This document shows, one piece after another, positions 38,369 through 54,106 of a stretch of 64,000 bases of DNA. Each line of letters starts with the position of its first letter. The first letter of the stretch is position 1. This DNA is from Vibrio crassostreae (GTDB lineage: Bacteria; Pseudomonadota; Gammaproteobacteria; Enterobacterales; Vibrionaceae), in assembly GCF_024347415.1 (NCBI RefSeq), contig NZ_AP025476.1, forward strand, positions 1,550,001 to 1,614,000, written 5' to 3'. The notes under the pieces were generated by a model, which was not told the DNA's origin, made no database searches, and was given only the letters and a program-made list of their open reading frames with translations. Made by a program: the position numbers and the translations under genes.

Positions 38369-38383
38369 GAATTAGAGAAATTC
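38369..38383. promoter_or_regulatory. shared palindrome, site 1 (secD2 operon)
   Basis: GAATTAGAGAAATTC: perfect GAATT/AATTC arms, 171 bases before the first gene of the secD2 operon. A half site, GAATTTCTGTAAACC, follows at 38410-38424, about four helical turns away. Part of the six-copy set. Confidence 0.6.
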
Positions 38384-38553
38384 AAATGTGGACCTCTCAA
38401 GTCATATTTGAATTTCTGTAAACCGTATTCAGAATACTGTTGGCTATTTATGATCACCGCATTCATGGTTTTCTAGGAAAGGAAACCTAATGCAGCAAAG
38501 GAGATAGGTTCAAATAAGAGCCTAATTAGCATCAAGTCACAGTTGTTAACCTA

Positions 38554-38991
38554 ATGAAAAAATTCAGAACAAACCTTTTGCCATTCACTCTTCTAGTCAG
38601 CGGTTTCTTCTCAAGCCTTGCATGGTCTTCGAGCGTAATGTTGGATGATATTTCGGCAATAGCGAAGCTTATTTATGACAGTGACCCTCAAGTTCAAGCA
38701 ACGAGCGACGTTAAACAAATCAAGAATAATCAATCTCTGACGTACCGAATTACAAAGGAAGAAGCGGAAAGCGATTTGTGGTCGATCGTTATTATTGATG
38801 GACAAAGTGATGAGATGGCAGACGGTGGTCAGAAATTACTTACCAATATCGACAACATGAATTTTCATCGAGAACTTGACGGCAGCTTACTCATCAAAAT
38901 ATCGAAGCACCGACCAGGCGATGTAAATACGACGAACTGGTTAAAGGCACCAGAAGGCAGTTTTTACCTTGTGAAGTATGTGTACTTATAG
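38554..38991 (+). CDS. exported protein upstream of secD2 (DUF1214-like C-terminus)
   Basis: 145 aa with a signal peptide (LPFTLLVSGFFSSLAWSSS). The last 35 residues, DGSLLIKISKHRP then NWLKAPEGSFYLVKYVYL, look like the end of DUF1214 domains, which usually read NWLPAP-x-G-x-F. It ends nine bases before secD2. In V. alginolyticus this place is held by VemP, a secretion-monitoring arrest peptide; the VemP arrest motif as I remember it (HRI-x-GWKETNAMYVALN) is absent. Whether this protein also stalls, or is simply an exported enzyme fragment, is open. Confidence 0.7.
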   Translation: MKKFRTNLLPFTLLVSGFFSSLAWSSSVMLDDISAIAKLIYDSDPQVQATSDVKQIKNNQSLTYRITKEEAESDLWSIVIIDGQSDEMADGGQKLLTNIDNMNFHRELDGSLLIKISKHRPGDVNTTNWLKAPEGSFYLVKYVYL

Positions 38992-39000
38992 GATAGAGAA

Positions 39001-40761
39001 ATGAAAAGAATATTTGCTTATTTCTTGCTGATTCTCTTACTGATTAGCGCAATACCGAGCTTTTTTGGCGAAAAGCCTGCTTTGGTTCTAAATCACGCTG
39101 ACAGCACCTTATCCATTGAGCCTTTACTAAGCACGTTAGTTGAAAATCAGATAACTCCGTTAGGTATTGATAATCGACAAGACGAAACTACGTTAATCTT
39201 TGAAAGCAAAGCAGAACAACGAGAAGCGCAACAGGCATTGTCATTGGCGTTTCCTTTGGCTCATTCTCATTTTTCATTCGTCAGTGCCGCTCCTCAACTC
39301 TTCAGTCACATAGGGCTAACGCCGATCAATCTTGGGTTGGATCTGCGTGGTGGCGTGCAGTTTATGTTGCAAGTAGAAGTCAATGAAAGTGCGAGAAGTT
39401 TGGTCGAAGCGACGTCTACCAATGTCCGACATTTGGCTAGTGCACAAGGAATACGTAGTCGAATTACTGATATCGATAACAATGGATTTTCGGTAATTCT
39501 TACCAACTCGAATAGAAAGGATTCCAACAATACTCAAAGCTTAACCGATCAAATGCGTTCGCAGTTTCCCGAATGGAAAGTCAGCGTAAATGAGAATGTA
39601 TTGCGTTTTACGCTTGAAGAAAGTGTCCAGGAGGAGCAAGCAAGCCTCGCTATGCAGCAAACCTTAAATATCATGCGTCAGCGTATTGAAAGTTTAGGCA
39701 TCACTGAAGCTGTAACCCAACGTCAGGGCGCTGACCGTATATTGATTGAGCTTCCTGGAGTTCAAGACCCGCAAATTGCAAAGCGTGTTATTGGTGCGAC
39801 GGCGACAATCTCTTTTCATACGGTTGTAGATTCAAGCCAAGCTGCACAGGTTCATGACACGCGTGATGGAGAACCTGTACGTCTGTCTAGGCAGCCGGTG
39901 TTAACGGGAGAGTACATTATTGGTGCATCCGCATCGGTTGGCGAGTTTGGACAACCTGAAGTGAACCTAGTGTTGAGCAGTGCGGGAGGCAGCAAAATGT
40001 CTGACTTCTCACGGAGCAACATCGGTAAACCTATGGTGACCTTATACAGCGAATATCATCAAGATCACAACAACCAACTTGTTCAACGGCATGAAGTGAT
40101 CAACATCGCTACCATCCAAAGCCAATTAGGAAGTCGTTTTAGAATTACGGGGATCGGGCAGATTTCTGACGCTCAAGACTTGGCGCTAATTTTACGTTCT
40201 GGCTCATTGACCGTACCTGTAACCATTATTGATGAGCAAGTGATTGGTCCAAGCCTAGGTGAAGAAAACATTCAAAAAGGTCTACTTGCTGTATTGGTTG
40301 GTTTAGCTCTGACATTTTTGTCGATGCTTGTTTTGTACCGAAGATTTGGCGTTATTGCTTGTGCCGCGCTTATCACCAATATTGTCATGATTGTGGGTTT
40401 CTTATCATTGATACCGGGAGCAACGCTTACTTTGCCGGGTATTGCGGGCCTTGTACTCACCATGGGCATGGCGGTTGATACTAACGTTCTGGTGTTTGAA
40501 CGAATCAAAGAAGAAATGCGTTCAGGAAGATCGCTATCGAGTGCGATACCGAGAGGTTATAAAGAGGCTAGAAGTACGATTATTGACGCAAACCTTACGT
40601 CGTTGATCACTGCGATTATTCTGTTTGCGATTGGTTATGGTGCCGTGAAGGGCTTTGCCATAACACTCGGGATTGGACTGTTGACCAGTATGTTTACGGG
40701 ATTATTTTATAGCCAAATGTGGATGACAAAACTTTGGGGGTATGAGAATGACAAAGTTTGA
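39001..40761 (+). CDS. secD: SecD paralogue (SecD2)
   Basis: Inner-membrane part of the SecDF motor, which pulls proteins across the membrane using an ion gradient. 586 aa, with the P1 head (GLDLRGGVQFMLQVEV; RIESLGITEAVTQRQGADRILIELPGV) and six helices. The proton/sodium-path aspartate is in GMAVDTNVLVFERIKEE. Separate from any yajC-secD-secF cluster, so this is the second copy that Vibrio carry. In V. alginolyticus SecDF2 works at low sodium. The stop overlaps secF by 20 bases. Confidence 0.92.
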   Translation: MKRIFAYFLLILLLISAIPSFFGEKPALVLNHADSTLSIEPLLSTLVENQITPLGIDNRQDETTLIFESKAEQREAQQALSLAFPLAHSHFSFVSAAPQLFSHIGLTPINLGLDLRGGVQFMLQVEVNESARSLVEATSTNVRHLASAQGIRSRITDIDNNGFSVILTNSNRKDSNNTQSLTDQMRSQFPEWKVSVNENVLRFTLEESVQEEQASLAMQQTLNIMRQRIESLGITEAVTQRQGADRILIELPGVQDPQIAKRVIGATATISFHTVVDSSQAAQVHDTRDGEPVRLSRQPVLTGEYIIGASASVGEFGQPEVNLVLSSAGGSKMSDFSRSNIGKPMVTLYSEYHQDHNNQLVQRHEVINIATIQSQLGSRFRITGIGQISDAQDLALILRSGSLTVPVTIIDEQVIGPSLGEENIQKGLLAVLVGLALTFLSMLVLYRRFGVIACAALITNIVMIVGFLSLIPGATLTLPGIAGLVLTMGMAVDTNVLVFERIKEEMRSGRSLSSAIPRGYKEARSTIIDANLTSLITAIILFAIGYGAVKGFAITLGIGLLTSMFTGLFYSQMWMTKLWGYENDKV

Positions 40762-41692
40762 CCAGTTGGTCGCTGATATTCAGTGGTCAAAAGTAAGGTG
40801 GAACGGTTTATTGGTTTCACTTGGGTTGATGTTTATATCAATTGTCCTGATATCGACCAAAAGTTTCACGCTTGGGCTTGAGTTTACCGGTGGTATCTCT
40901 CATGTTGTCAATACAGATATTCCAGTGACTTTGGAAGCGATGCAGTCAGCTTTGAATACGGTATTTGATGAATTACCCAATCTAGTGCCCGATGTTACCT
41001 ACCAAACTTGGCAGTTACAGTTTCCTATCGGCGGAACGGGTGAGTTGGAGTTGTTGCAGTGGTTGAGAGCCGTGGAATTGGAACTAGGTCATCCCCTTAA
41101 TCTAGTGTCTAGCTCGGTTGTTGGTGCGCAAGTCGGTGAGCAATTATTTGAACAAGGTGGTTTGGCTCTGCTCGTTGCATCTATCGCTATTATGTTTTAT
41201 TTAACCGTGCGGTTTGAATGGCGATTAGCCTTGGGAGCGATTGTTGCTCTGTTACATGATGTGCTGGTGGTTTTAGCGTTGTTTGTCTTGTTTTCGATTG
41301 AATTTAATCTGACGGCACTGGCGGCATTGCTTGCGGTCGTGGGGTATTCACTCAATGACTCTATTGTGATCGGAGATCGAATCCGTGAGTACCTGACCCG
41401 TAGACCGAATCAAAGTACCAGTGAGTCAACGGATCAGGCGATAAGGGCGTCGTTGTTTAGGACTTTAGTGACATCTGGAACGACGTTATTGACAGTAAGC
41501 AGTATCGGCCTTATCGCAGGTGGCACATTAAGTGGCTTTGCGTTTGCATTGTTTGCCGGGATTATTGTGGGTACTTGGTCTTCGCTGGTGATTGGAACCG
41601 CAATACCGGAAAGGATTGGTTTGTCAGCTGATCATTATAAGCCCAAAGCTCCTTTGTTAGATGAAGGCGGTCACCCTATTCATAGCCAATAA
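40742..41692 (+). CDS. secF: SecF paralogue (SecF2)
   Basis: Partner of SecD2, 316 aa. The signature LGLEFTGGISHVVNT follows TM1, and the ion-path block VVGYSLNDSIVIGDRIREYL is in the C-terminal helices. Its start lies within secD, so the pair is coupled. The stop is directly followed by short repeats (41693-41720) and no clear terminator. Confidence 0.92.
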   Translation: MRMTKFDQLVADIQWSKVRWNGLLVSLGLMFISIVLISTKSFTLGLEFTGGISHVVNTDIPVTLEAMQSALNTVFDELPNLVPDVTYQTWQLQFPIGGTGELELLQWLRAVELELGHPLNLVSSSVVGAQVGEQLFEQGGLALLVASIAIMFYLTVRFEWRLALGAIVALLHDVLVVLALFVLFSIEFNLTALAALLAVVGYSLNDSIVIGDRIREYLTRRPNQSTSESTDQAIRASLFRTLVTSGTTLLTVSSIGLIAGGTLSGFAFALFAGIIVGTWSSLVIGTAIPERIGLSADHYKPKAPLLDEGGHPIHSQ

Positions 41693-41721
41693 CTAATAGT
41701 CAATAACTAATAACTAATAGC
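41693..41721. repeat. short degenerate repeat after secF2
   Basis: CAATAACTAATAGT-like units, two to three copies, beginning at the secF2 stop codon. Confidence 0.45.
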
Positions 41722-41919
41722 AAATTTAAGCTTTATGGCTCCTATATTGGAGCCTTTCTTTTGCCTAAGAAAATTTAATCAGTGTCTAAATGTTATTGTC
41801 GTCATTACATTTAATATTATCTAATAATAATGCTGTTGGATTTAAATATAAAGTAAAGATAATAGTATGTCTCTATCATTAATTTTGTATTAGTAATGAT
41901 TTACAGTGACCTCTATTTT

Positions 41920-41934
41920 GAATTTCTGTAATTC
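41920..41934. promoter_or_regulatory. shared palindrome, site 2 (outer-membrane barrel gene)
   Basis: GAATTTCTGTAATTC, perfect arms, 61 bases before the GTG at 41995. Confidence 0.6.
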
Positions 41935-41994
41935 GTCGTAAACAAGATGCGATTGAGTACAATTACCTCGACATTAAATATTAAGGAATACATT

Positions 41995-42678
41995 GTGAAA
42001 AAAATCGTATTAACTATCTCTGCTATTTTACCTTTAACTCTTTCAGTTGCTGCAAATGCAAATCAGGACATCGATTTTTCAAACCCAGTGTCGACGTATT
42101 CTTATGCAAACCTAGGTTATGATAGTGATGGGTTTACCGCAGGTATTGCTGCAAGTCAGGATTTTAGCAATGGTTCAGCCATGCTTGAGTACATTGGAGC
42201 GAATGATTTTTATCAACATAACTTTATTGCGACATTAGCGAATAGCAATCGTGATGCAGCATTGCAACTGGATTATCTTTGGGATACGGATTATCGCGAT
42301 ACAAGCAAAAATTCACGTACGGTTTTTATTAATGCGATAAATACAACATCGATTGACTCTAATTTCAGCATCTCTCCAAAATTAGGTTTAGGTTTAAATA
42401 ACAATGACCTATCAAAAAATACAAGTTATCTAGCGAGTGCGGCACTGACCATGACCTACGCATTTAATCGTGTCGTTTGGCTTGATATTACACCAGAATA
42501 TACTTACAGCTTTAATGATCAAAAACAGAAAGTCGGCGGTAAAGATAGTTACCGAGATTCATCCATTGAAACCAATCTAGGCTTCAAAGTGACACCGAAT
42601 CAGTTTGTTGAAACAACATACCGCTACGATGAAAATAATGATCATTATACAGGTATCCGCTACAACATGAGATTTTAA
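41995..42678 (+). CDS. small outer-membrane beta-barrel protein
   Basis: 227 aa from GTG 41995, chosen for the AAGGA eight bases upstream and the clean signal peptide (cut near ANANQ). The mature part is made of alternating polar/aromatic strands and ends YTGIRYNMRF, the terminal phenylalanine of barrel proteins. About eight to ten strands are likely. No named family recognised. Preceded by the shared palindrome, so it belongs to the putative regulon. Confidence 0.75.
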   Translation: MKKIVLTISAILPLTLSVAANANQDIDFSNPVSTYSYANLGYDSDGFTAGIAASQDFSNGSAMLEYIGANDFYQHNFIATLANSNRDAALQLDYLWDTDYRDTSKNSRTVFINAINTTSIDSNFSISPKLGLGLNNNDLSKNTSYLASAALTMTYAFNRVVWLDITPEYTYSFNDQKQKVGGKDSYRDSSIETNLGFKVTPNQFVETTYRYDENNDHYTGIRYNMRF

Positions 42679-42742
42679 CAGACAAGCCTCCATTGTTAAG
42701 TTGCTGTATTTATTTCATTGATGAAGTGTACAGTCTCTTAAC

Positions 42743-42826
42743 TAGTCGCTGTTTAATAGTCGCTGTTTAATAGTTAATAGTTAATAGTTAATAGTTAATA
42801 GTTAATAGTTAATAGTTAATAGTTAA
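42743..42826. repeat. nested tandem repeats
   Basis: TAGTCGCTGTTTAA twice (42743-42770), then TAGTTAA eight times (42771-42826). Located 65-150 bases after the barrel gene. Copy number is probably variable. Confidence 0.85.
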
Positions 42827-42886
42827 CGCGAATTCTGTCCATCAATGAATTTTTATTAAATATTTAAAGAATAAAGGTTTTCATGC

Positions 42887-43015
42887 ATGAAAATAATAAC
42901 CGATCAACCATTAATTCTCTACGGGAAAGTACCCTTTAAATACATCTACTTTTGGTTGTCTTCTTATGTGGTGGTTATGTGTGGGTTCTTGTTTGTGATA
43001 GGGGGAATGAGTTGA
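42887..43015 (+). CDS. candidate 42-aa membrane protein
   Basis: Open frame starting MKIITDQPLILYGKVPF, with a hydrophobic segment (YFWLSSYVVVMCGFLFVIGG) before the stop. AAAGG lies nine bases upstream of the ATG. Its size and single helix are typical of bacterial small membrane proteins. Conservation is untested. Confidence 0.45.
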   Translation: MKIITDQPLILYGKVPFKYIYFWLSSYVVVMCGFLFVIGGMS

Positions 43016-43188: not shown

Positions 43189-43248
43189 GGATTATCTCCA
43201 TCAATTTTCTGATGACTATTTATCGCATGATTTCTTCGAGTGAAACAT

Positions 43249-43263
43249 GAATTAGAGAAATTC
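43249..43263. promoter_or_regulatory. shared palindrome, site 3 (mscS / 24-aa peptide)
   Basis: GAATTAGAGAAATTC, perfect arms, between divergent start codons at 43188 (minus) and 43377 (plus). Confidence 0.6.
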
Positions 43264-43376
43264 ATTATTACTCAAGTCGCAAAGAACCGTTCTTGATTTA
43301 TGTTAATTATTATTGGCGCCATCAGTGAAACTGTATGAACCCAGATAGAGCCTCTCTACTAAATCAAAGGTCAATT

Positions 43377-45176
43377 ATGGTCACTCGACTTGTAACTCTT
43401 TTCTTTTCAACCCAAATTCTTTTGCTTAGTTCATTGGTTCACGGTCAAGACAAGCTCGGCTTTGTAGATACCTCAACGCCCAATAGCACCTTGTCTGGTT
43501 TTATTACGTATTCTGAGCACGTGCTCCATTATTGGCAGCTTGAACAACTCCATTTACCTGAAGCCCAACATGCTTATGCTCAAGTAATTCGTACCATGGA
43601 TCTGTCACATCTTCCTAATCGCAGTAGAACCGTAGTCGTGATGGAAAGAATCATTTTGCTCCACGAAATTCTAAATAGGTTAGGGCAAGACGTTCAATTA
43701 CACCCTTCAGAAACTACGTCGACAGAAGGTGAGTCTGGGAGCCAGTGGCGTCTTGCGAACACCGACATCTTAATCGCTAAGCAGATGAGTGGTGAGAAAG
43801 TCGGCCAATATCTATTTACGGCCACATCCGTTAACAGCTTATCTAAATGGTATCGTTTGATATCAATGTCCACTGAGAAAAATGAACATGACATTGATCT
43901 ATACCATGAGTTTCTAATTCTCCCTGGCCCGCTGTTTTCAATCTCAGTGATTCAGTCTTTACCAGAAAGCTTTAATACCTTGTACGCATCGATTCCTCTT
44001 TGGCAGTGGTTCGCTTTAGTAAGCGTATTTTTACTATGTCGATTTATGATTAAGTTAAGTTTTTCTTTTGGTGAACGCTGGAACTTACATTGGTATCGAA
44101 ATGGGTTGAAATGGCAAATTGGCCGCCAGTTATCTCTCGTTGGGGTTGTCTTTATACTGTTTATTACCCGAAAAGTGATTGATGACGGAATCTGGATCAC
44201 TGGAGGTATCTACCAGTTTTTGTCTACCTCTTTTCTAATTGGGCAGTTTTTCTTCGTTTCGTGGTTGATTATGACCATCTTCAATTACTTTGCTGAGCTG
44301 TATGTATTTAATAAACACGAAGGCAAGTATGTTGATTCCTCTTTAATTACGGTACTCGCGCGTATTTTTGGTGGCCTTACGATTGCCATTTTGGGCATTT
44401 ACGTGGTCGATTTCATGGGCTTTTCAATTTCTCCAATTGTTACGGGCTTAGGCGTTGGTGGTTTAGCGGTGGCGCTCGCTATTCGCCCGGTATTGGAAAA
44501 CGTGATTAATGGACTGACTTTGTATGCTGACGGTGGAATTAAAATTGGTGAGCTGTGTCGCTATGGTGACAATTTAGGAACGATTGAGAGCATAGGGCTA
44601 CGTTCTACGCGAATCAGAACATTAGAACGCTCTTTAATCACTATTCCCAATTCCGAGTTTGCCAACATGGAAATTGATAATCTAGAACGCCGTGACAAGC
44701 GCCGGATGAATCACCGTTTGAGGTTACGTTCTGAGCTGACTCAAGATCAACTGAAACTCCTTGTTGTTGGTATAAGGCGGCTGCTATTACAACATCCTAA
44801 ACTCGATGAAGATCCGGTGAGGGCAAGGTTTGTAGGTGTCGGTGAGTTTGCGATACATATCGATTTACTCGCTTATATTATATGCAAAGACCATGACGAG
44901 TTTCTTGCTGTTCAAGAGGACGTGATGTTTTCGGTGATGCAGCAAATTGAAGCCGTCGGTGCCCAGTTGGCGTTCTCCAATCAATACCAACTTACGCAGG
45001 GACTTAAACCCATTGATGAGGAACTAAAAGAGAAAGCGAGCGAAACAGTTAAGCAATGGCAAGATAATAATAACTATCCGTTTCCTGACTTTAGTTATGA
45101 ATTTAAAGATGGGATTAAAGACAGCATTATGTATCCAGCCAAGAGTTCAGCAGTTCGAGCAAATGCTAATGGCTAG
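43377..45176 (+). CDS. MscS-family mechanosensitive channel with periplasmic domain
   Basis: Opens under membrane tension to release solutes after hypo-osmotic shock. I chose ATG 43377 (AAAGG six bases upstream, followed by a signal peptide ending VHGQ); ATG 43335 is an alternative. A periplasmic region of about 180 residues precedes four or five membrane helices. The pore helix is MGFSISPIVTGLGVGGLAVALAIRPVLENVINGL, and the beta domain follows (IKIGELCRYGDNLGTIESIGLRSTRIRTLERSLITIPNSEF). Longer than MscS (599 aa), like the YnaI/YbiO group. Confidence 0.9.
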   Translation: MVTRLVTLFFSTQILLLSSLVHGQDKLGFVDTSTPNSTLSGFITYSEHVLHYWQLEQLHLPEAQHAYAQVIRTMDLSHLPNRSRTVVVMERIILLHEILNRLGQDVQLHPSETTSTEGESGSQWRLANTDILIAKQMSGEKVGQYLFTATSVNSLSKWYRLISMSTEKNEHDIDLYHEFLILPGPLFSISVIQSLPESFNTLYASIPLWQWFALVSVFLLCRFMIKLSFSFGERWNLHWYRNGLKWQIGRQLSLVGVVFILFITRKVIDDGIWITGGIYQFLSTSFLIGQFFFVSWLIMTIFNYFAELYVFNKHEGKYVDSSLITVLARIFGGLTIAILGIYVVDFMGFSISPIVTGLGVGGLAVALAIRPVLENVINGLTLYADGGIKIGELCRYGDNLGTIESIGLRSTRIRTLERSLITIPNSEFANMEIDNLERRDKRRMNHRLRLRSELTQDQLKLLVVGIRRLLLQHPKLDEDPVRARFVGVGEFAIHIDLLAYIICKDHDEFLAVQEDVMFSVMQQIEAVGAQLAFSNQYQLTQGLKPIDEELKEKASETVKQWQDNNNYPFPDFSYEFKDGIKDSIMYPAKSSAVRANANG

Positions 45177-45204: not shown

Positions 45205-45233
45205 GCTTTACCTAAGGCTATTATCGCTAATTT

Positions 45234-45248
45234 GAATTTCTCTAATTC
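45234..45248. promoter_or_regulatory. shared palindrome, site 4 (RND operon)
   Basis: GAATTTCTCTAATTC, perfect arms, 65 bases before the ATG at 45313. Confidence 0.6.
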
Positions 45249-45269
45249 ATCGTGTTTACCTTCTATTTA

Positions 45270-45306
45270 CTCCAAAGTAGCGTCAAATATTTAAGCTACT
45301 TTGGAG
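45270..45306 (+). promoter_or_regulatory. perfect 12-bp hairpin that covers the ribosome site of the RND operon
   Basis: CTCCAAAGTAGC (45270-45281) is exactly complementary to GCTACTTTGGAG (45295-45306); the loop is 13 bases. The last four bases, GGAG, are the ribosome site of the ATG at 45313. No U-tract, so not a terminator. Either an RNA switch or a DNA operator dyad. Confidence 0.75.
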
Positions 45307-45312
45307 ATATCT

Positions 45313-46404
45313 ATGCCTCGTGTTCGTCCTTCGCGCATACTTCTTTCTTTATCTGTTTTACTTATGTCAACAGGATGTTCGACCGAAGATTCACCACTCA
45401 TAGGCGATACTCCTCGCCCTGTTCGTTTGACTGAAGTCCAAACCGTGGGTCATCAAGAAATAAGACGTTTTCCAGCCCAAGTCTCTGCGTCTAAGGAAGT
45501 TGAGCTTGCTTTCCGAGTGGGTGGTGAAGTGGTGGAATTTAACTTAAAGCCATCTCAACGAGTAACAAAAGGAGAGATCATTGCTCGACTTGATCAGCGA
45601 GATTTTAAAACGGAAGTTGCGTTAAAAAAGTCGGAGTTTGATTTAGTCAAAAGAGAATTAGATCGCGCAACGCAAATGATGAATAAAAATCTATTGGCTC
45701 AAGCTGAATTTGATGGCATTCATGCTCGCCTTCAAGTTGCACAAGGTTCTCTACAACTAGCTGAAGATAGGCTGAAAGATACTGTCATTACTGCACCTTA
45801 CAGTGGTCGAATAGCAACGACTCACATTGAAAATCATCAACAAGTGCAAGCTCACCAAGGTATCGTTCTTTTGCAAGATCATGAAATGATTGATCTTACT
45901 ATCCAGTTACCGGAGAACGTACTCAGCCAGATGGATGCAAAGAGAATCGACCCATCTTACAAGCCATTAGCGACCTTTAATGGATCGGCGGTTTCCTATC
46001 CTGTCGCTTATAAGCAGCACAAAACGCAAGCAACAGCAGGCACACAAAGCTATGAGGTGACCTTTACACTGGACACACCAAAAGATAATCACACAGTGTA
46101 CCCAGGTATGGGAGCGACGCTTCATCTTGATATCGATAAAATCATTGCCGATAAGCAAGGTACGCAACGTTTTGTCATTCCTGCCAGTGCCATTTTGGAT
46201 AATGACCTTTTGGGGCAATCGCAAGTTTGGGTATACAAGGATGGACAAGTCTTTCCGTTAGATATCAAAATTCAAGGCGTGTCGTCGCGTGGTGCAGTGG
46301 TTTCTGGAGATTTATCTCAGAACAGTTATGTGGTGAGTGCCGGTGTGAGTCAATTGTCACAGGGTATGAGAGTTACGCCTATTGTTCGTGAGCGAGGTTT
46401 ATAA
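45313..46404 (+). CDS. RND efflux periplasmic adaptor
   Basis: Membrane-fusion lipoprotein (lipobox STGC) that bridges an RND pump and the outer membrane. 363 aa: beta-barrel and lipoyl parts (FPAQVSASKEVELAFRVGGEVVEFNLKPSQRVTKGEIIARLDQRDF), a helical hairpin (TEVALKKSEFDLVKRELDRA), the second lipoyl half (LKDTVITAPYSGRIATTHIENHQQV). ATG 45313 is chosen for its GGAG. The stop overlaps the pump gene by one base. Confidence 0.9.
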   Translation: MPRVRPSRILLSLSVLLMSTGCSTEDSPLIGDTPRPVRLTEVQTVGHQEIRRFPAQVSASKEVELAFRVGGEVVEFNLKPSQRVTKGEIIARLDQRDFKTEVALKKSEFDLVKRELDRATQMMNKNLLAQAEFDGIHARLQVAQGSLQLAEDRLKDTVITAPYSGRIATTHIENHQQVQAHQGIVLLQDHEMIDLTIQLPENVLSQMDAKRIDPSYKPLATFNGSAVSYPVAYKQHKTQATAGTQSYEVTFTLDTPKDNHTVYPGMGATLHLDIDKIIADKQGTQRFVIPASAILDNDLLGQSQVWVYKDGQVFPLDIKIQGVSSRGAVVSGDLSQNSYVVSAGVSQLSQGMRVTPIVRERGL

Positions 46405-49400
46405 TGAACCTGACTAATTACGCAATTAAAAACAAAGTCATAAGTTGGCTAGTGGTTGTCATCCTATTAGTGGGCGGTGTACTTTCTTTTCGTGGTTTAG
46501 GGCAATTGGAATTTCCAGCATTCCCTATTCCACAAGCCATGGTCAACACCACGTACCCTGGTGCCTCTGCAATGCAAGTTGAGGAGGAAGTCACCTTACC
46601 GCTTGAACGTGCGATTTCTCAGCTTGAATACGTTAGAGATGTTGAATCTTTTACGACTGCGGGACTTTCTCAGATTGCGGTGATATTAAAAGAGACCATA
46701 CAAGCAGAACAACAACCTCAGGTATGGGATGAATTGCGCCGTAAGGTGAATGATATTCAGCCTAGAATGTCCCCGGGAGTGAATCCATCGCAAGTCATTG
46801 ATGATTTTAGCGATGTGTATGGCATTCTCTACAACATTACGAGTAATGAATACACTTATCGCGAGCTGCAAAATTACGGTGAATACCTTCAACGTGAGCT
46901 TCTTGCCATTAAAGGGGTAAAGAAAGTTAACTTGGCCGGGCTAGTCTCTGAACATATTGTGATTGAGATTGCCCAGCAAGATCTTAATACGTTGAATCTC
47001 GATCCTGCTTGGCTTTCTCGTTTGATTCAAAATCAGAACATGGTGTCCAATGGTGGTGATTTACTACTTGATGGACAATCGATCCGAATCCATTCCTCTG
47101 GTGAGTTTAATGAAGTTGAAGCGTTAAAGTCATTTAAATTTAGCCCGCCGGGAAGCAATGATCTGATCCAATTAGGTGATATCGCAGAGGTAAGCCGTCA
47201 GTTTCAGGATAAAGCTTATACCTTGTATCGTAACAATGGTGAACAAGCCATTTCTCTTGGGATCTCGTTTGCGAACAGCGTCAATGTGGTTGATGTGAGT
47301 GAACGTGTCAGTAATAAATTGTCTGAACTCGACTTTGCTCGCCCAATCGGCATTGAATTGAACAAAGTGTACGACCAAGGCGATGCGGTTGATAAATCGG
47401 TGTCTGACTTTGTGATGAGCTTAGTGGAAGCGGTATTGATTGTTATTGTCGTGTTGTTATTTGCAATGGGTTTGCGTTCAGGGATTTTAATGGGGGCTAT
47501 TTTATTACTGACTATCCTCGGTACCTTCATTGGAATGAGTATTCTAGGCGTTGAGATTCAAATCATTTCGCTTGGTGCTTTGATCATTGCACTCGGAATG
47601 CTCGTTGATAATGCAATAGTGATAACGGAAGGCGTATTGATTGGTCTTAAGCGTGGGCTTACCAAACGTCAAGCAATTGAATCTGTAGTTAAACAAACGC
47701 AGTGGCCACTGCTTGGCGCGACACTGATCGGTATTATCGCGTTTGCTCCGATTGGATTGTCTGCCGACGCAACGGGAGATTTCTTAGGGTCTTTATTCCA
47801 AGTATTAGCGATCTCGTTGGTGTTAAGTTGGGTACTGGCGATCACGTTAACGCCTTTCTTCTGCGAGCTGATGTTTAAAGAAGAAATAGCCAAAGGGGAC
47901 TCAGAGCAGGTCGACCCTTATCGAGGATTGATATTTACCTTGTATCGCACGGTTCTCAATACCGCATTGAAAAACCGTATTGCGACTATGCTCATCACTC
48001 TGACATTGCTCATCTCCGCTGTGATTGGTTTTGGCTCTGTAAAACAAGCTTTTTTCCCACCATCGAATACCCCCATTTTTTATGTAGATGTGTGGCTGCA
48101 ACAAGGCACTGACATTCGTGAAACCGAACAACGCCTAGAACAGATTGAACATACCGTGAGTGAGTTTAATGATGTTCATAATGTCACGACCGTCATAGGA
48201 ACCGGTGCACAGCGATTCATTCTGACTTATGCACCTGAAAAGTCATACAGCAGTTACGGGCAATTGATTGTTGAAGCTAAAGATTTAGCCGCGATCGAAA
48301 GTATGTTGCCCCAGATGAGATCAAAACTTGAAAGTCTACATCCAGACAGTGATTTTAAGTTTAAGTTAATGGACTTAGGGCCAGCCCCCGCCGCTAAGGT
48401 TGAAGCGCGTTTTTATGGTTCAGATCCACAAGTATTGAGAAAACTTGCTGCCCAAGCGAATGAGATTATGCGCAATGAGCCAAAAGCAACCGCAGTTCGT
48501 CACTCGTGGCGAGAAAAGACTCAGGTGCTTGAACCGCAACTTGATGGTGCCGCGGCAAGGCGGGTAGGGATAACCAAGAGTGATCTTGATAGAACCTTGT
48601 TACGCAATTTAGATGGAGAGCAAATAGGGCTGTTCAGAGATGGTAGCCATATCATGCCGATTGTTATGCGTGCGCCAGATGGAGAACGTTTTGATATTGA
48701 CAGATTACCTGAGCTACAAGTTTGGAGCCAAGACCAAAGCCGTTATATCCCAATAACACAGGTGGTTTCCGACTTTAACCTGACGACGGAAGACTCATTA
48801 ATTGTTCGCCGAAACTTTAAACGCGTGATTTCTGTTATGGCAGATGTGACACCATTTGGTGATGATACGGCTGAGTCTTTACGCCGTTTGGTCGCACCAA
48901 AGATCGAAGCGATTAAACTCCCTCAAGGTTATCATTTTGAGTGGGGCGGTGAATACGAAAGTCAGCAAAAGGCCACCAATAACCTAATGGGTTCATTGCC
49001 AATGGGCTATCTGATCATGTTCTTGATTACGGTATTATTGTTTAACACCATTCGCCAGCCTTTGGCGATTTGGCTAACCGTACCGTTAGCATTGATTGGT
49101 GTGAGTGCGGGCTTACTGTTAATGAATATCCCGTTCTCGTTCACGGCATTACTAGGGTTGTTAAGTTTATCAGGCATGATTGTGAAGAATGGCATTGTGT
49201 TGGTAGAGCAAATCAATATCGAAACCGACCAAGGTTCGAACCTTAGCCATGCGATTGTGGATGCCAGTGTAAGTCGTGTTCGACCTGTCTGTATGGCAGC
49301 AATTACCACCATGCTTGGTATGGTTCCATTGGTTTTTGATGCCTTCTTCCAGTCGATGGCGGTGACCATTATATTTGGGCTAGGGTTTGCTACTTTATTA

Positions 49401-49457
49401 ACATTAATCGTATTGCCTGTGATTTACGCCTTGCTGTACCGAGTAAGCTATCGTTAA
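46404..49457 (+). CDS. RND efflux pump, AcrB-type permease
   Basis: Inner-membrane proton-driven exporter, 1017 aa, with twelve helices and two large periplasmic loops. Marks: FPAFPIPQAMVNTTYPGASAMQVEEEV near the start, TM4 IIALGMLVDNAIVITEGVL, and TM10 LSGMIVKNGIVLVEQIN. TM4 has Asp-Asn where AcrB has Asp407-Asp408, whereas the lysine matching Lys940 is kept. Substrate unknown. No outer-membrane channel gene follows, so it must use a distant TolC. Confidence 0.92.
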   Translation: MNLTNYAIKNKVISWLVVVILLVGGVLSFRGLGQLEFPAFPIPQAMVNTTYPGASAMQVEEEVTLPLERAISQLEYVRDVESFTTAGLSQIAVILKETIQAEQQPQVWDELRRKVNDIQPRMSPGVNPSQVIDDFSDVYGILYNITSNEYTYRELQNYGEYLQRELLAIKGVKKVNLAGLVSEHIVIEIAQQDLNTLNLDPAWLSRLIQNQNMVSNGGDLLLDGQSIRIHSSGEFNEVEALKSFKFSPPGSNDLIQLGDIAEVSRQFQDKAYTLYRNNGEQAISLGISFANSVNVVDVSERVSNKLSELDFARPIGIELNKVYDQGDAVDKSVSDFVMSLVEAVLIVIVVLLFAMGLRSGILMGAILLLTILGTFIGMSILGVEIQIISLGALIIALGMLVDNAIVITEGVLIGLKRGLTKRQAIESVVKQTQWPLLGATLIGIIAFAPIGLSADATGDFLGSLFQVLAISLVLSWVLAITLTPFFCELMFKEEIAKGDSEQVDPYRGLIFTLYRTVLNTALKNRIATMLITLTLLISAVIGFGSVKQAFFPPSNTPIFYVDVWLQQGTDIRETEQRLEQIEHTVSEFNDVHNVTTVIGTGAQRFILTYAPEKSYSSYGQLIVEAKDLAAIESMLPQMRSKLESLHPDSDFKFKLMDLGPAPAAKVEARFYGSDPQVLRKLAAQANEIMRNEPKATAVRHSWREKTQVLEPQLDGAAARRVGITKSDLDRTLLRNLDGEQIGLFRDGSHIMPIVMRAPDGERFDIDRLPELQVWSQDQSRYIPITQVVSDFNLTTEDSLIVRRNFKRVISVMADVTPFGDDTAESLRRLVAPKIEAIKLPQGYHFEWGGEYESQQKATNNLMGSLPMGYLIMFLITVLLFNTIRQPLAIWLTVPLALIGVSAGLLLMNIPFSFTALLGLLSLSGMIVKNGIVLVEQINIETDQGSNLSHAIVDASVSRVRPVCMAAITTMLGMVPLVFDAFFQSMAVTIIFGLGFATLLTLIVLPVIYALLYRVSYR

Positions 49458-49512
49458 CACCTCAATGTTCAATACCTCTCATTAGGAAAGAACGTCCAGA
49501 GTTGTTCAATAT

Positions 49513-49547
49513 AAAGCTGATGCTAACAATGTTGGTATCAGCTTTTT
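49513..49547 (+). terminator. terminator of the RND operon
   Basis: AAAGCTGATGCTA and TGGTATCAGCTTT pair over 13 bases with two G-U pairs, then TTTTTC. Confidence 0.8.
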
Positions 49548-49862
49548 CGTTTGTATTAGCTAGGAAAAATGAACGATTTAGTATTCAAACTCGATTGAAG
49601 ATACATGCTGTCATCAATGTATCAACTGAATCAGTTAGAAAGCTACCTGTGTGACAGCCTTAAAACGTCCATACCTTGCTATCGAATCTTTGTGAGGAAA
49701 ACCTAGGCAGATTTCGTTGAAGGTGTAAGCCTTTACCGGGTAGACAGGGGCTTTAAATGTGAGAACAAAAAGTCATGGGGTGATTAGAAGATTGAGTGTG
49801 TATCTTGAGGGGATAGCATTGTGATCTGCTGGAGTGGAAACTGGATGCTTTTATTTAAACAG
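49548..49862. other. intergenic region, no gene seen
   Basis: About 310 bases between two terminators of convergent units. Only short frames without ribosome sites. Confidence 0.5.
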
Positions 49863-49898
49863 AAAACCCCACACAGATCGCTAACCTACAGTGTGGGG
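49863..49898 (-). terminator. terminator of marC
   Basis: On the minus strand CCCCACAC pairs with GTGTGGGG, followed by TTTTCTGTTT. Confidence 0.7.
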
Positions 49899-49908
49899 GA
49901 TACGAAAA

Positions 49909-50559
49909 TTACAGCAATACGCTGATGTCTTGTACGATTTCAGTGATACCGATAGTAAAGAACTGCACACCCATGCAGATAAGCAGAAAGCCCATAATAC
50001 GAGTAAAGGCGTTAATACCATTCTGTCCCAAAGCTTTAAGTAACGGGTAAGCCATACTCAGAATAAAAGCGGCGACTAAGCTAACGACACCAAACCCTCC
50101 AATTACCCCTGTATAAATACTTATCTTTTCTAACTCTTCCTCGCTAGACGCGATTTCAGCGGCAAGGCTAATGATCAGTGCCATTGTTCCGGGGCCACAC
50201 AACGATGGAATGGTAAGCGGCACCAATGCGATGGAATCTTGCCCGACACTGCCATCCATGCTTTCTGGTTTTGGAAACAGCATGTTAAAGCCAATAGCAC
50301 AAATGATAATCCCGCCACCTAAGCGTAAGCTCGGAATTGAAATACTAAACAGTTCTAAAACGGAAGCACCAATGAAGAAGGTGACACACATAGCAATGAA
50401 CAGGTAAATCCCAACAGTTTTCGCTTGTGAAACGATGTAACTTTTGTCTCGTCCTTTACTTAAACCAAGAAGAACAGTAGCGGCGGCTGGAGGGTTCATC
50501 ATCGGCAATAAGCCAAGAACGGTGAGAGTCAAATAAGTGAATAACGTTTCTAAATGCAT
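49909..50559 (-). CDS. MarC family membrane protein
   Basis: 216 aa with about six helices and the MarC signature GLLPMMNPPAAATVLLGLS, plus RLGGGIIICAIGFNMLFPK and PLTIPSLCGPGTMALIISLAAE. Once classed as amino-acid/neutral exporters; no transport role is proven for the family. Downstream of mgtE on the same strand across a 150-base gap filled with an octamer repeat. Confidence 0.88.
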   Translation of the reverse strand: MHLETLFTYLTLTVLGLLPMMNPPAAATVLLGLSKGRDKSYIVSQAKTVGIYLFIAMCVTFFIGASVLELFSISIPSLRLGGGIIICAIGFNMLFPKPESMDGSVGQDSIALVPLTIPSLCGPGTMALIISLAAEIASSEEELEKISIYTGVIGGFGVVSLVAAFILSMAYPLLKALGQNGINAFTRIMGFLLICMGVQFFTIGITEIVQDISVLL

Positions 50560-50644
50560 ACGGTTCCCTTTTATATTTTGGGGTTTATGTGTATTTGAGC
50601 GGCGGCTAAATAATTAGGTAATGACTTAATCTAGAATCAAAATA

Positions 50645-50708
50645 ATGACCAAATGACCAAATGACCAAATGACCAAATGACCAAATGACCAAATGACCAA
50701 ATGACCAA
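50645..50708. repeat. 8-bp tandem repeat, eight copies
   Basis: Unit ATGACCAA, eight exact copies, ending one base from the mgtE stop codon (50710-50712, minus strand). It forms the 3' untranslated region of mgtE and the spacer to marC. Prone to slippage. Confidence 0.92.
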
Positions 50709-50709
50709 G

Positions 50710-52101
50710 CTAGAGAAGCATTAGTTGAGCAAGATACAGAACACTAAAGAACGAAATTGCATCGGTTAATGTGGTGAGTAACGGACTCGATAACATAGCT
50801 GGATCGAGGTTTGCGCGTTTGAGGGCTAGGGGTAAAGCGCCACCGATCATTACTGCTAGCGTTGACGATACCGTATAGGCAATGGCGACAATAACTGGTA
50901 ACAAGTGACTTTGCTGGCCATGAGTGAGTAACATAAGAAGGGCGATGACCAAACCAATAGCGATGCCATTGAGTACACCTATCGGGAGCTCTTTTATGAC
51001 AACAAACAACCAATCTTTGGCCGAAATATGTTCTGTAGATAACTCTCGAATAGAAACTGCGACGGATTGATTCCCAGCAGCACCTGATAAGTTGGCGACT
51101 AAGGGTAAAATGGCTGCCAAAACCGCAATTTGTTCAATAATGTGTTCGAAAGAAGCTATGATCGATACGGCGGCATAGCTCAATATGACTGATGGCAACA
51201 AAAAGGTAAGGCGTCGGATATTACGCTGCAGTAGTGGCATGGTACGAAACTCGTCGCCACCAAATATACCGCTTGCTTCGCGTTGTTGTTGTTTGGATTT
51301 TTCGTATAACGCTTTATTCAATTGAGTGTAGCCAACAATGCCTATTTGAAACCCATGTTCGTTGATAACAGGCACAGTTGCGTGTGATGTGGAATCGAGA
51401 ATGCTTTTTAATGATCGAAGGTCAAAATCTGCACGCACTGTTGGGATGCTGTTATCGATATGGTCAACCACCTTTTCCCAAGATTGGGCGAGAAACAATT
51501 TACGAGTTTTGACCGTACCTAAGTAGTTACCACGTTTGTCGTGCAGGTAAATGTAGCGCCATTCAATTAGCTCAGAGCTTTGCTCACCTTCACGTAAAAT
51601 GGCCTCCAAGTCTGAAATGGTGGCCCAACTTTCTAATTTAATGATTTCATTCTTGCAAATACGCCCAACGGATCCGCTAGGAAAAGACATTGACGCTTTC
51701 TCTTCATTCTCCCAAGTCTCAGGCAGTGAAGCTTCGAGGGCTTGATGAAGCTGTTTAGGTAAGCCACGTAATAATGAGCGGCGAACGTCAGATCGCATGT
51801 GCAAAAGAATATCTTTTGCACTGTCGATAGGTAGTTTTGTAAATAACAGTTCACGTTCTGGTTCTGTTAAGTAATCCAGAAAGTCAGCAGCAAGTTTAGG
51901 CTTTTGAGAGCAGATTAATACCCAAAATTGTTCTCGCTGCTGGTCGCTGAATTTTCGAATAACGAATGGAAGATCGGTAAGGTTAGCATTGTCGATCTGC
52001 TTGATAATGTCAGTGCTATTGGTGGATTGTATCGCTGTGATCAACTTGGAATACAGTCGTTCGGCTTCAGTGTTAGGTAGTGGTACGGCTATCAAGGTCA
52101 T
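50710..52101 (-). CDS. mgtE: magnesium transporter MgtE
   Basis: Mg2+ channel gated by intracellular magnesium. N-terminal MgtE_N superhelix (to about 130), tandem CBS domains (PVINEHGFQIGIVGYTQLNKALYE is the second), and five C-terminal helices with ILPLVANLSGAAGNQSVAVSIREL and SPLLTTLTDAISFFSVLYLA. 463 aa, normal. Nine bases after dedA, so cotranscribed. Confidence 0.92.
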   Translation of the reverse strand: MTLIAVPLPNTEAERLYSKLITAIQSTNSTDIIKQIDNANLTDLPFVIRKFSDQQREQFWVLICSQKPKLAADFLDYLTEPERELLFTKLPIDSAKDILLHMRSDVRRSLLRGLPKQLHQALEASLPETWENEEKASMSFPSGSVGRICKNEIIKLESWATISDLEAILREGEQSSELIEWRYIYLHDKRGNYLGTVKTRKLFLAQSWEKVVDHIDNSIPTVRADFDLRSLKSILDSTSHATVPVINEHGFQIGIVGYTQLNKALYEKSKQQQREASGIFGGDEFRTMPLLQRNIRRLTFLLPSVILSYAAVSIIASFEHIIEQIAVLAAILPLVANLSGAAGNQSVAVSIRELSTEHISAKDWLFVVIKELPIGVLNGIAIGLVIALLMLLTHGQQSHLLPVIVAIAYTVSSTLAVMIGGALPLALKRANLDPAMLSSPLLTTLTDAISFFSVLYLAQLMLL

Positions 52102-52110
52102 AGTAATTGG

Positions 52111-52761
52111 CTACATTGCAATGTGGTTTCGTTTACGGATAAGTCGGATAAATAGGGTGATGAAAGCAATTGCCATCAGTGACAAGCTGGTGAAGAGAAA
52201 CCACCTAGTGATTAGCTCTTGATATTGGTTTAGAAATGGATGACGCATAATGGATTTTCCTGCATAAAGCAGTGTTAACGCCCACACGATTGAACTGGTC
52301 ATGCTGATCATGACTGTGCGGATAAAACTCAGGCGTGCAATGCCCATCAGCATAGGGGTTAACACACGAACGAATGGAACAAAGCGAGATACGAACAACG
52401 ATAGGAACCCAAATTTATTGAGAAGGTGCCTTGCTCTCGGTAATGATTCGTCGGGTAATACGACTTCAACTTTGTCCATCCAGCGTGAACCTTCTAACCA
52501 ACGCCCTTGTAGATAACCGACAATCGTACCTAAGCAAGCAGATAGGCTTAGAATAGTAAGGGCGGTATAGAAATCCACAGCACCTAATCCAACCAGCCCT
52601 CCAACAAATAACACGAGCCCATCACCTGGGAGAGGTAAAAATACAAAACTCGATTCTAGAAATAACACCATCGCAAGCAGTAGCAGCAAGATATGGAGTG
52701 AGTTGATCTCGAGTAGCGTGTCAAAATCTTGTACCCAAATGGCGGATAATATTTCATTCAT
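52111..52761 (-). CDS. DedA family membrane protein
   Basis: Integral membrane protein linked in the family to lipid-carrier flipping and to proton-motive-force and envelope-stress tolerance. 216 aa. FVFLPLPGDGLVLFVGGLVG in the first half and RFVPFVRVLTPMLMGIARLSF in the second are DedA blocks. It lies between the chaA-like gene and mgtE on one strand. Substrate unknown. Confidence 0.88.
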   Translation of the reverse strand: MNEILSAIWVQDFDTLLEINSLHILLLLLAMVLFLESSFVFLPLPGDGLVLFVGGLVGLGAVDFYTALTILSLSACLGTIVGYLQGRWLEGSRWMDKVEVVLPDESLPRARHLLNKFGFLSLFVSRFVPFVRVLTPMLMGIARLSFIRTVMISMTSSIVWALTLLYAGKSIMRHPFLNQYQELITRWFLFTSLSLMAIAFITLFIRLIRKRNHIAM

Positions 52762-52782
52762 ACTCTTTCCTTAGTGGCATAA

Positions 52783-52821
52783 AACAACGTACCAGCCAAA
52801 TCGAATGGTTTGGCTGGTACG
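52783..52821 (-). terminator. terminator/attenuator between chaA-like gene and dedA
   Basis: Perfect 13-bp stem CGTACCAGCCAAA/TTTGGCTGGTACG, followed on the minus strand by TTGTTTTATG. Sits in the 67-base gap, so dedA-mgtE may be reached by readthrough only. Confidence 0.7.
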
Positions 52822-52828
52822 TGTGGTA

Positions 52829-53986
52829 TTAATCGAACATCAAAATCAAATAGGCGAAAAAGAGAACAAGGTGGGTCGCGCCATTAAGTGAGTTTGTCCT
52901 GCCGCTACTAAAGCTAACGCTTGTCATGAGAAGTGTGGCGGCCAGTAACACCATTTCTGCAGGCTTTAGGCCTAATTTAATGGGTTGGTCCAATACTCCT
53001 GAGATGAGTAAAACGGCCGGTACGGTCAGCGCAATCGTTGCTAATACCGAACCAAAGAACAGGTTGATAGCACGCTGCAGTTGGTTTGTGAGGGCTGCTT
53101 TGACGGCTCCGACGGCCTCTGGTGCAAGAATAATAAGCGCAACGATAAGGCCGCCAAGCGCTGGCGGGGCGCCCATAACGCTAATGCTGTCGTTAATTGG
53201 TATGGCTAAGCTTTTTGCAAGAAGTATCACGATGATCAAGTAGCCAATCAACATCATGGTGTGAAATAGATTGCTACTTACCGGGCCGTGGTGGTCGTGT
53301 CCACTTTTATTGTCGGCATCAATGAAGAAGTGAATATGGCTACGTGTTTGTACGAACAGAAATACGCCATACAACGCAATGGATGCGAGAACCAGTGTGC
53401 CCATTAAGCTCAATGACATGTTTCCGTTCTCACTGCTGCTGGTAAAGTTTGGCAAGATCAAACAAAGCATTGCGAGTGGAATAATGGCAACCAAATACGC
53501 TTTAATGCCATCCAAATTATAGGACTGAGTGTGATACTTCATCCCACCCACTAATAAAGTAATACCGACAAATCCATTCAATACCGCCATGATCACAGCG
53601 AACATCGTATCTCGGGCAAGGACAGGATTTGGATCGCCAGTCAGCATCACGGAAGAGATCATAATCACTTCTAATGAGATTACCGACAATGTCAGAATGA
53701 GTGTACCAAATGGGTCTCCTAGCTTGATTGCTAGGGAGTCTGAGTGACGTACAACCGCGAAAATTGCGGTCATTGTGATATAAAAGAGTACGGCAGTAGT
53801 GATGACATAAGAGAAGATTGAGAGACTTGAGGTCAGCATGCTTTCACCAAAAGTCTTGAAAAATATAACAGTCAAAATACCGAGGAGCAGTGTTTTTTCT
53901 TGCTTCAAAGTCTTATACATTTTGAGCTTTTCGTTGGCACCAACATCGTCAGTTCCCATTGACTTTGTTAATTCGCGAATGTTCAC
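52829..53986 (-). CDS. ChaA-like Ca2+(Na+)/H+ antiporter
   Basis: Cation/proton exchanger of the CaCA superfamily, 385 aa with about eleven helices. The two repeat motifs are GDPFGTLILTLSVISLEVIMIS and ILAPEAVGAVKAALTNQLQRAINLFFGS, each with the acidic residue of the ion path. An acidic and His/Asp-rich loop (FFIDADNKSGHDHHG) lies in the middle. I place the start at GTG 53986, which has GGAGG five bases upstream, rather than at ATG 54064 or 53998. Ion selectivity is not readable from sequence. Confidence 0.85.
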   Translation of the reverse strand: MNIRELTKSMGTDDVGANEKLKMYKTLKQEKTLLLGILTVIFFKTFGESMLTSSLSIFSYVITTAVLFYITMTAIFAVVRHSDSLAIKLGDPFGTLILTLSVISLEVIMISSVMLTGDPNPVLARDTMFAVIMAVLNGFVGITLLVGGMKYHTQSYNLDGIKAYLVAIIPLAMLCLILPNFTSSSENGNMSLSLMGTLVLASIALYGVFLFVQTRSHIHFFIDADNKSGHDHHGPVSSNLFHTMMLIGYLIIVILLAKSLAIPINDSISVMGAPPALGGLIVALIILAPEAVGAVKAALTNQLQRAINLFFGSVLATIALTVPAVLLISGVLDQPIKLGLKPAEMVLLAATLLMTSVSFSSGRTNSLNGATHLVLFFAYLILMFD

Positions 53987-53991
53987 TACGT

Positions 53992-54029
53992 CCTCCATAA
54001 GGTAGTGATCGACTCGCAGTTTATGGTGG
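53992..54029 (-). promoter_or_regulatory. hairpin that covers the ribosome site of the chaA-like gene
   Basis: On the minus strand CCACCATAA (54029-54021) can pair with TTATGGAGG (54000-53992), eight of nine bases, loop 20. The GGAGG of the GTG start is in the 3' arm. Confidence 0.5.
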
Positions 54030-54047
54030 TTCGGAAAGCCTGAGTAT

Positions 54048-54062
54048 GAATTTGAGAAATTC
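54048..54062. promoter_or_regulatory. shared palindrome, site 5 (chaA-like gene)
   Basis: GAATTTGAGAAATTC, perfect arms, 62 bases upstream of the GTG at 53986. Confidence 0.6.
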
Positions 54063-54091
54063 ATAAATGCGTTTATATCTACCCCAACGCT

Positions 54092-54106
54092 GAATTTCTC
54101 TAATTC
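54092..54106. promoter_or_regulatory. shared palindrome, site 6 (chaA-like gene)
   Basis: GAATTTCTCTAATTC, perfect arms, 44 bases (about four turns) from site 5. The rest of 54107-54483 has no convincing gene. Confidence 0.6.

Follow-up and report, generated by a model that had tools for sequence, protein, structure and literature searches.

SdsB1-type LysR regulators control alkylsulfatase genes. ThnR of Sphingopyxis granuli TFA is a LysR-type activator of the tetralin operons that needs the co-activator ThnY; its primary sites at two divergent promoters share one helix face at a distance of 55 bp and cooperate through looping (PMC4834489). In Pseudomonas aeruginosa, BsrA (PA2121) binds hundreds of sites with a loose T-N11-A box (PMC8407307), and the VemP-SecDF2 system of Vibrio alginolyticus has a secreted leader gene directly before secD-secF (PMC7793623, PMC10987492). 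Here we analyze a stretch of 64,000 nucleotides from Vibrio crassostreae (contig NZ_AP025476.1; "the window" denotes this whole stretch) in which palindromic sites of the form GAATT-N5-AATTC recur upstream of genes for envelope and transport proteins. We regard it as highly probable that these sites are the operators of a LysR-type regulator encoded beside them, at 54484-55413.

The arrangement resembles that of ThnR in that one LysR regulator would serve several clustered operons, with divergent promoters whose sites are predicted to lie on one helix face; it differs in that the ThnR sites are centered at -64 or about -75 and stand 55 bp apart (PMC4834489), whereas those described here would be centered near -44 and are mostly 44 bp apart. 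BsrA supplies the best-scoring named LysR model for the window protein, yet the match lies far below its cut-off (82.7 versus 480 bits), as does that of LeuO (73.5 versus 262), and no named LysR model was passed among the best 25 of 39 NCBIfam matches. The likeness to SdsB1-type regulators is one of gene neighborhood, with the LysR gene beside alkylsulfatase-type metallo-hydrolase genes in 14 of the 43 loci compared below, while most loci and the examined stretch of the window are without such an enzyme. The window shares a leader gene before secD-secF with the VemP system, but its leader is a DUF1214 protein. A search of the open literature by operator letters and gene set (subscription papers and preprints were outside its scope) returned no description of the regulon, in agreement with the earlier note on this DNA, which knew of none with this site, and the control circuit is apparently undescribed.

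The earlier note had reported six exact GAATT-N5-AATTC palindromes, far above chance, and a half site at 38410. All six were recovered and no further exact copy occurs in the window, for which 100 shuffles gave a mean of 0.19 copies and none reached six; the half site was also found (38409-38425), with three mismatches to the 17-bp form given next. Across the genome there are 15 copies of the bare motif and 14 of its reversed control, so the ten bases alone are insufficient to define the set and were rejected as a regulon definition. With spacer and flanks included, the 17-bp sequence TGAATTTCTSTAATTCA has seven genomic sites at zero or one mismatch, six of them in the 16-kb cluster of the window and one at C1:1332652; at up to three mismatches there are 61 rows in the genome and 61 for the control, which was compared as a total only. 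Twenty-nine places among these 61 rows were inspected closely. At offset 39-40, the seven sites and the weak site at 38409 match three to five of the six positions of a -10 box. All eight are outside any open reading frame (ORF) of at least 40 codons except 54047, which is in the 5' extension of the chaA ORF; 20 of the remaining 21 places are inside ORFs of at least 135 codons. The spacer is directional and reads TCTST toward the served gene.

Two positional statements of the earlier note stand in part. Distances of 60-110 bases from site to start codon are roughly right, except for orf96 (~124 bases) and for 54092, which has no intact gene in front of it. Most sites are intergenic as claimed, with the exception of 54048, which overlaps the initial ATG of the longest ChaA ORF; since ChaA has 363 residues in most relatives and 411 in that ORF, this site is probably upstream of the real chaA gene. 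The concern that the motif might be as common in coding DNA was not borne out, as none of 174 sites falls inside a recurrent gene family (with a 30-base margin at gene ends); a few fall in other ORFs, such as in locus L091.

What kind of element do these sites form? Of 266 candidate sites, 55 were excluded for an unclear spacer, and 206 of the others entered the alignment (at most two arm mismatches, near-identical copies removed, sister-clade loci included). A TATAAT-like box (at least four of six bases) stands 40 bases from the operator start in 63% of the 206 sites, and no other offset between 20 and 69 exceeds 16%; a CA step appears at offset 51-52, where a transcription start would be expected. 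Taking starts from these -10 and CA positions, the operator would span about -52 to -36 and be centered near -44. Only 9% of sites have a -35 hexamer (at least four of six bases) at 17-bp spacing; a -35-like hexamer is found in 33% at spacing 21, where the operator itself forms it. Beyond ~24 bp, conservation is confined to the -10 box, the start region and the paired partner. T at position 0 (94%) and A at position 12 (97%) form a T-N11-A that lies off the dyad center. This comparison across genomes supports both the operator and its promoter geometry, and the sites are, as judged by alignment, promoter operators. The poor -35 element and the fixed distance between operator and -10 box suggest activation, and we infer that the regulator probably acts as an activator.

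Which protein would read these sites? The product of 54484-55413 matches both LysR domains above cut-off (PF00126, E 7.4e-16; PF03466, E 1.6e-8) and is by domain content a LysR-type regulator, with an operator position that would be unusual for the family. The exact 15-mer GAATTTCTSTAATTC gave 63 matches in 22 of 148 genus genomes, 14 of which have at least two, against five matches for the control. LysR relatives of at least 50% identity are present in 25 of the 148 genomes, and 20 of these are among the 22 with GAATTTCTSTAATTC. When genomes were assigned to the clade of the window LysR, the motif was present in 19 of 19 genomes with the clade and in 3 of 129 others (Fisher p 3.6e-21, kinship ignored). 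The assignment was read from the tree by the author, with LysR rows shorter than 240 residues and L092 excluded from it; G038, whose clade copy is interrupted, was counted, and G001, which has a broken clade copy and no exact site, was placed among the 126 genomes with neither, and the count would otherwise be 19 of 20. The three motif genomes without the clade have one site each, inside an 823-aa (amino acid) ORF in G020 and with poor flanks in G039 and G095. A single exact site is also all that 5 of the 19 clade genomes have.

A second line of evidence came from a LysR-alignment scan of named species genomes in which the motif was not used. It yielded at least 45 loci from Vibrio, Photobacterium, Shewanella, Ferrimonas, Marinobacter, Moritella, Aliagarivorans, Alginatibacterium, Motilimonas and Undibacterium, and among the matches listed a site (at most one mismatch, within 10 kb) was found in 26 of 26 loci with LysR identity of at least 60%, in 3 of 10 at 50-59% and in 0 of 9 at 40% or below. 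The commonest intergenic gapped palindrome of those 26 loci (99 kb) is GAATT-N5-AATTC itself, with 64 copies and a presence in 26 of 26 loci, and the next palindrome after its own extended and nested forms has six copies. Six loci (L138, L140, L144, L153, L156 and L166) are second copies of genomes already included and were dropped from the count of sites inside gene families, the site alignment, the tree, the pair spacings and the operon-head counts, but each was kept once in the identity-class and palindrome counts. The proposal in the earlier note that one regulator serves several promoters, with the adjacent LysR gene as that regulator, is thus backed by clade co-occurrence, palindrome ranking and the covariation described below, and we consider the link between LysR and operator, as drawn from these comparisons, very likely.

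These results bear on two alternative hypotheses. One takes the sites for a mobile repeat, a terminator or chance occurrences, and the lack of genome-wide enrichment of the bare motif might be cited in its favor. The shuffle counts, the 63 matches against five for the control in 148 genomes, the placement upstream of -10 boxes and the limits of conservation, which are unlike those of a mobile repeat, all speak against it, and together with the LysR-identity classes and the palindrome ranking they led us to reject it as having virtually no chance of being correct. The other is that a regulator encoded elsewhere binds the sites and that LysR is only a frequent target or neighbor. In 16 of 43 loci, the window not among them, the 350 bp upstream of LysR contain a site, so that LysR could be a target; the survey of regulators was confined to 20-kb stretches. 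Against this, LysR is present in 43 of 43 loci while no other family occurs in all of them (LysR was in part the basis on which the loci were chosen), LysR is the sole regulator family among the genes shown near sites in minimal loci, the operator changes along with the LysR clade, and genomes without the clade have single sites that are probably due to chance. We therefore regard an outside regulator as improbable.

The covariation is seen in a sister LysR clade (10 loci), in which the window operator is absent at one mismatch. Seven of its 10 loci instead have GAATA-N5-TATTC, and six have the exact TGAATA-N5-TATTCA. The sister clade comprises 11 rows in the tree (support 100/99), eight with the sister operator nearby. 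Positions 1, 5, 17 and 25 of the first 75 residues separate the two clades, and only helix-turn-helix (HTH) position 25 is fixed in both, as His in 44 of the 44 rows with a letter there and as Ser in 11 of 11; the stretch ISQTSVSRG hardly varies. His25 is retained in two Aliagarivorans rows, whose TGAATT-armed sites have two mismatches. Such covariation of operator and HTH is expected if the LysR family reads the sites, and the two paralogous regulator/operator pairs offer a natural experiment on how a LysR protein changes its DNA specificity.

Many operators occur in pairs. Most pairs are inverted and face outward, at spacings of 44 bp (22 pairs), 41 bp (seven), 53-54 bp (four) and 64-65 bp (four), which are steps of about ten bases that recur in front of different gene pairs; other spacings are each represented by a single pair. 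By these spacings the paired sites are predicted to occupy the same helix face, as in ThnR-like divergent promoters, and two dimers may cooperate on the divergent promoters. When the paired pattern was searched with a free gap of 26-30 bases, it was found in 11 of 247 family genomes, from 3 of 13 genera, with a spacing of 44 bp in nine and 43 bp in two; the control for the pattern gave no match in the same 247 genomes.

One target appears to have been overlooked so far. The earlier note took mscS as the gene served by the site at 43249; this is doubtful, as the site faces the opposite way, toward a putative membrane peptide of 24 aa. The frame of this peptide in three relatives differs from that of the window by 5-8 synonymous and 2-5 other codon differences. 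The family, roughly MKYLPxxxIFxxYLxFFFxLVIRL and 24-29 aa long, stands behind otherwise orphan sites in 15 loci (L075, L077, L078, L080, L082, L084, L085, L086, L139, L142, L149, L151, L167, L169 and L181). A profile search of the loci gave 35 matches, duplicates included, of which 31 have an operator-like match that faces the same way, with the ATG 65-93 bases from its start (in three of them the operator has three or four mismatches); the remaining four comprise two without an operator and two read from an earlier start. The peptide family is present in 17 of 148 genus genomes, all among the 25 with the window LysR or its sister. The annotated Vibrio alfacsensis record, whose gene table is incomplete, lists no gene at the place of the peptide (L181:18275).

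Operon heads were counted in 43 loci with a site within 350 bp upstream at up to three mismatches, leaving out L091, L092, L095, L097, L073, L079 and the sister-clade loci. A site precedes the esterase gene in 31 of 31 loci, chaA in 25 of 25 and the outer-membrane barrel gene in 22 of 22, which is the conservation before orthologous genes that the earlier note had asked about, and also orf96 (21/22), the alkylsulfatase gene (13/14) and the membrane-fusion protein gene (7/7). Second genes are without sites (SecF 0/16, DedA 0/20, MarC 0/20, RND 0/7), and MgtE has one in 2 of 22 loci. Where exactly one flanking gene belongs to a recurrent family (116 sites), the operator faces that gene in 86 cases.

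What of the low-salinity response proposed in the earlier note? The genome has three SecD genes above the family cut-off (C1:668979, C2:1661590 and C1:1589331). The C2 pair follows a secreted leader that contains a GWKE stretch and that we take to be VemP-like. No GWKE stretch is present in the window leader, PDB searches with either leader found nothing, and a VemP identity of the window leader was rejected, as it is a DUF1214 protein (PF06742). The "secD2F2 with its leader gene" of the earlier note therefore survives as a leader-secD-secF unit that is one of three SecDF pairs in the genome. Because the leader is DUF1214 and the pair is the third, the low-sodium argument cannot be transferred to it and the low-salinity reading loses its basis; an envelope-stress response, also suggested, is plausible as an inference. 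A Photobacterium transcriptome study at low salinity reports a changed SecD gene, which could not be matched to a particular SecD and has no part in this argument.

Across loci, the genes behind the sites encode a secreted esterase (PF07859), alkylsulfatase-type metallo-hydrolases, an enzyme of tannase/feruloyl-esterase type, outer-membrane proteins including DUF2860 and DUF3943, RND efflux, ChaA, SecDF and orf96, and in minimal loci such as L145, L152, L154 and L160 only LysR genes, esterase and DUF2860 remain near the sites. These contents point tentatively to a purpose of coping with, or using, membrane-active esters or amphiphiles. An alternative is that the same LysR and operators form a repressor or dual regulator for ion or salinity stress: MscS, ChaA, MgtE and SecDF recur near sites, and repression is also possible from an operator that touches the -35 region. 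However, the scarcity of -35 hexamers is consistent with activation, the minimal loci have esterase and DUF2860 but none of the ion transporters, and the window SecDF differs from the pair whose leader we take to be VemP-like, so that we consider this alternative rather unlikely.

In the model that we favor, with the LysR protein as activator, a dimer would bind the 17-bp TGAATTTCTSTAATTCA, covering about -52 to -36 next to a poor -35 element and a fixed distance before the -10 box, and outward-facing operators 44 bp apart (41, 53-54 or 64-65 bp elsewhere) would let two dimers cooperate on divergent promoters. The regulon here would comprise orf96, DUF1214-secD-secF, the outer-membrane barrel gene, the 24-aa peptide, the RND pump, chaA-dedA-mgtE-marC and one distal site, and the response may hydrolyze esters or amphiphiles outside the cell, pump them out and restore ion balance. 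Several observations weigh against this model. Sites stand before SecD in only 12 of 16 loci and before MscS in 5 of 28, and 27 of the 116 sites face away from the flanking gene with three undecided, although 14 of the 27 face the small peptide gene (16 when the second sites of L086 and L167 are added). The 206 compared sites are not independent, as the genomes are related; an operator near -44 is not where LysR primary sites usually lie (near -65), and no second inverted site was found upstream of 126 lone operators. Two window operators have only three of six bases of a -10 box, the window LysR gene has no upstream site of its own, and the proposed purpose rests on gene names.

A wider hypothesis, which we hold to be almost as likely to be right as wrong, is that of a patchy marine regulon in which a LysR activator uses a directional 17-bp operator near -44, with pairs in helical register firing divergent operons, and in which a small peptide and a half-hydrolase accompany secreted hydrolases, efflux and ion transport; paralogous TGAATT and TGAATA versions would coexist in some genomes and be kept apart by few residues, HTH position 25 (His/Ser) being the clearest candidate. 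The circuit is present in a minority of Vibrio species (19 of the 148 genomes sampled) and in loci of Photobacterium, Shewanella, Ferrimonas, Marinobacter and others. Its precise operator, regulator and target list make it directly testable, and it brings a small membrane peptide family and an uncharacterized small protein family forward as putative regulon members while setting the window SecDF apart from the VemP low-sodium system.

Table 1 Operators and associated genes in the window.
Feature	Position	Strand	Remarks
orf96, 96 aa	37955..38245	-	No Pfam family; predicted model resembles N-terminal half of alpha/beta hydrolases
Operator 1	38368..38384	-	Faces orf96; weak -10 candidate (3/6)
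Operator 2 (weak half site)	38409..38425	+	Faces DUF1214-secD-secF; TATGAT at offset 40; 41 bp from operator 1; also in L080, L084 and L085
Secreted DUF1214 leader protein	38554..38991	+	PF06742, E 2.4e-11
secD (39001-40761) and secF (40742-41692)	39001..41692	+	Third SecDF pair of the genome; family profile matches
Operator 3	41919..41935	+	Faces outer-membrane barrel-like gene; TACAAT at offset 39
Outer-membrane barrel-like protein	41947..42678	+	Recurrent family, site in 22/22 loci; real start probably near 41995
Putative membrane peptide, 24 aa	43114..43188	-	Stop codon included; frame kept in L080, L084 and L085; ribosome site
Operator 4	43248..43264	-	Faces 24-aa peptide; GATAAA at offset 40
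MscS-type channel	43335..45176	+	Not clearly driven by operator 4
Operator 5	45233..45249	+	Faces membrane-fusion protein and RND pump; weak -10 candidate (3/6)
Membrane-fusion protein (45301-46404) and RND permease (46404-49457)	45301..49457	+	Domain matches
marC (49909-50559), mgtE (50710-52101), dedA (52111-52761), chaA (52829-54064)	49909..54064	-	Domain matches
Operator 6	54047..54063	-	Faces chaA-dedA-mgtE-marC; TAAACT at offset 40
Operator 7	54091..54107	+	Faces esterase trace; 44 bp from operator 6
C-terminal trace of secreted esterase gene	54202..54345	+	tblastn 39.6% over 48 residues, E 8.6e-4, one cluster c1 query
LysR-type regulator, 309 aa	54484..55413	-	Proposed operator reader; HTH_1 and LysR_substrate domains; motif co-occurrence; operator/HTH covariation

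Several features of the individual genes deserve mention. The orf96 product ends early in the window; its counterpart in L080 has 120 aa, as does a Vibrio crassostreae protein with 100% identity to it over 99%. It has 120 relatives, all without Pfam domains and hypothetical or uncharacterized wherever named; the window member matched no domain family, and in searches with 20 members there was one stray weak match each to CART, DUF1959 and RRM_YTH1, while the sequence gave insignificant matches only against PDB. The AF2 model (pLDDT 84.6) matched part of an alpha/beta-hydrolase fold by Foldseek (best E 3.4e-4, TMq 0.60), and this single model, with a TM of about 0.6, gives a lead that orf96 may be half an alpha/beta-hydrolase. 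The outer-membrane barrel-like protein had no Pfam or NCBIfam match. The site at 54092, counted as a promoter site by the earlier note, is present as an operator, but it faces only the weak esterase trace; at the place of operator 7, L080 and L084 have an intact gene for the secreted alpha/beta hydrolase (esterase).

The LysR gene was also found on plasmid-collection records of Vibrio fortis and Vibrio alfacsensis and on a 2.1-Mb Photobacterium replicon, which suggests movement between genomes. The Vibrio alfacsensis cluster, on plasmid pYa108 (L181), has five sites and adjoins genes for acyl-CoA dehydrogenases, an amidase, an SDR oxidoreductase and an acetyl-CoA acetyltransferase, which hints at a catabolic role. 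A search of the phage collection with LysR gave no match, and a motif scan of viral contigs returned at least 120 stretches, with a single match in each of the 80 listed. In L081, L089, L145, L154 and L160, tandem LysR paralogue pairs lie between two operators, flanked on opposite sides by the esterase and DUF2860.

The distal perfect operator (C1:1332652-1332668; L073:10652) has TAAGAT at offset 40. It is situated in a long intergenic region upstream of a gene of unknown function for 163 aa, with a 31-codon frame between them, and the served gene could not be assigned. Two repeats were noted within the cluster. A short tandem TTAATAG-like repeat occupies 42766-42827, between the outer-membrane barrel gene and the peptide gene, and a perfect 12-bp inverted repeat, CTCCAAAGTAGC/GCTACTTTGGAG, lies at 45270-45306 between operator 5 and the membrane-fusion gene, where it covers the -10 candidate and the ribosome site and is possibly the site of a second regulator or an RNA hairpin.

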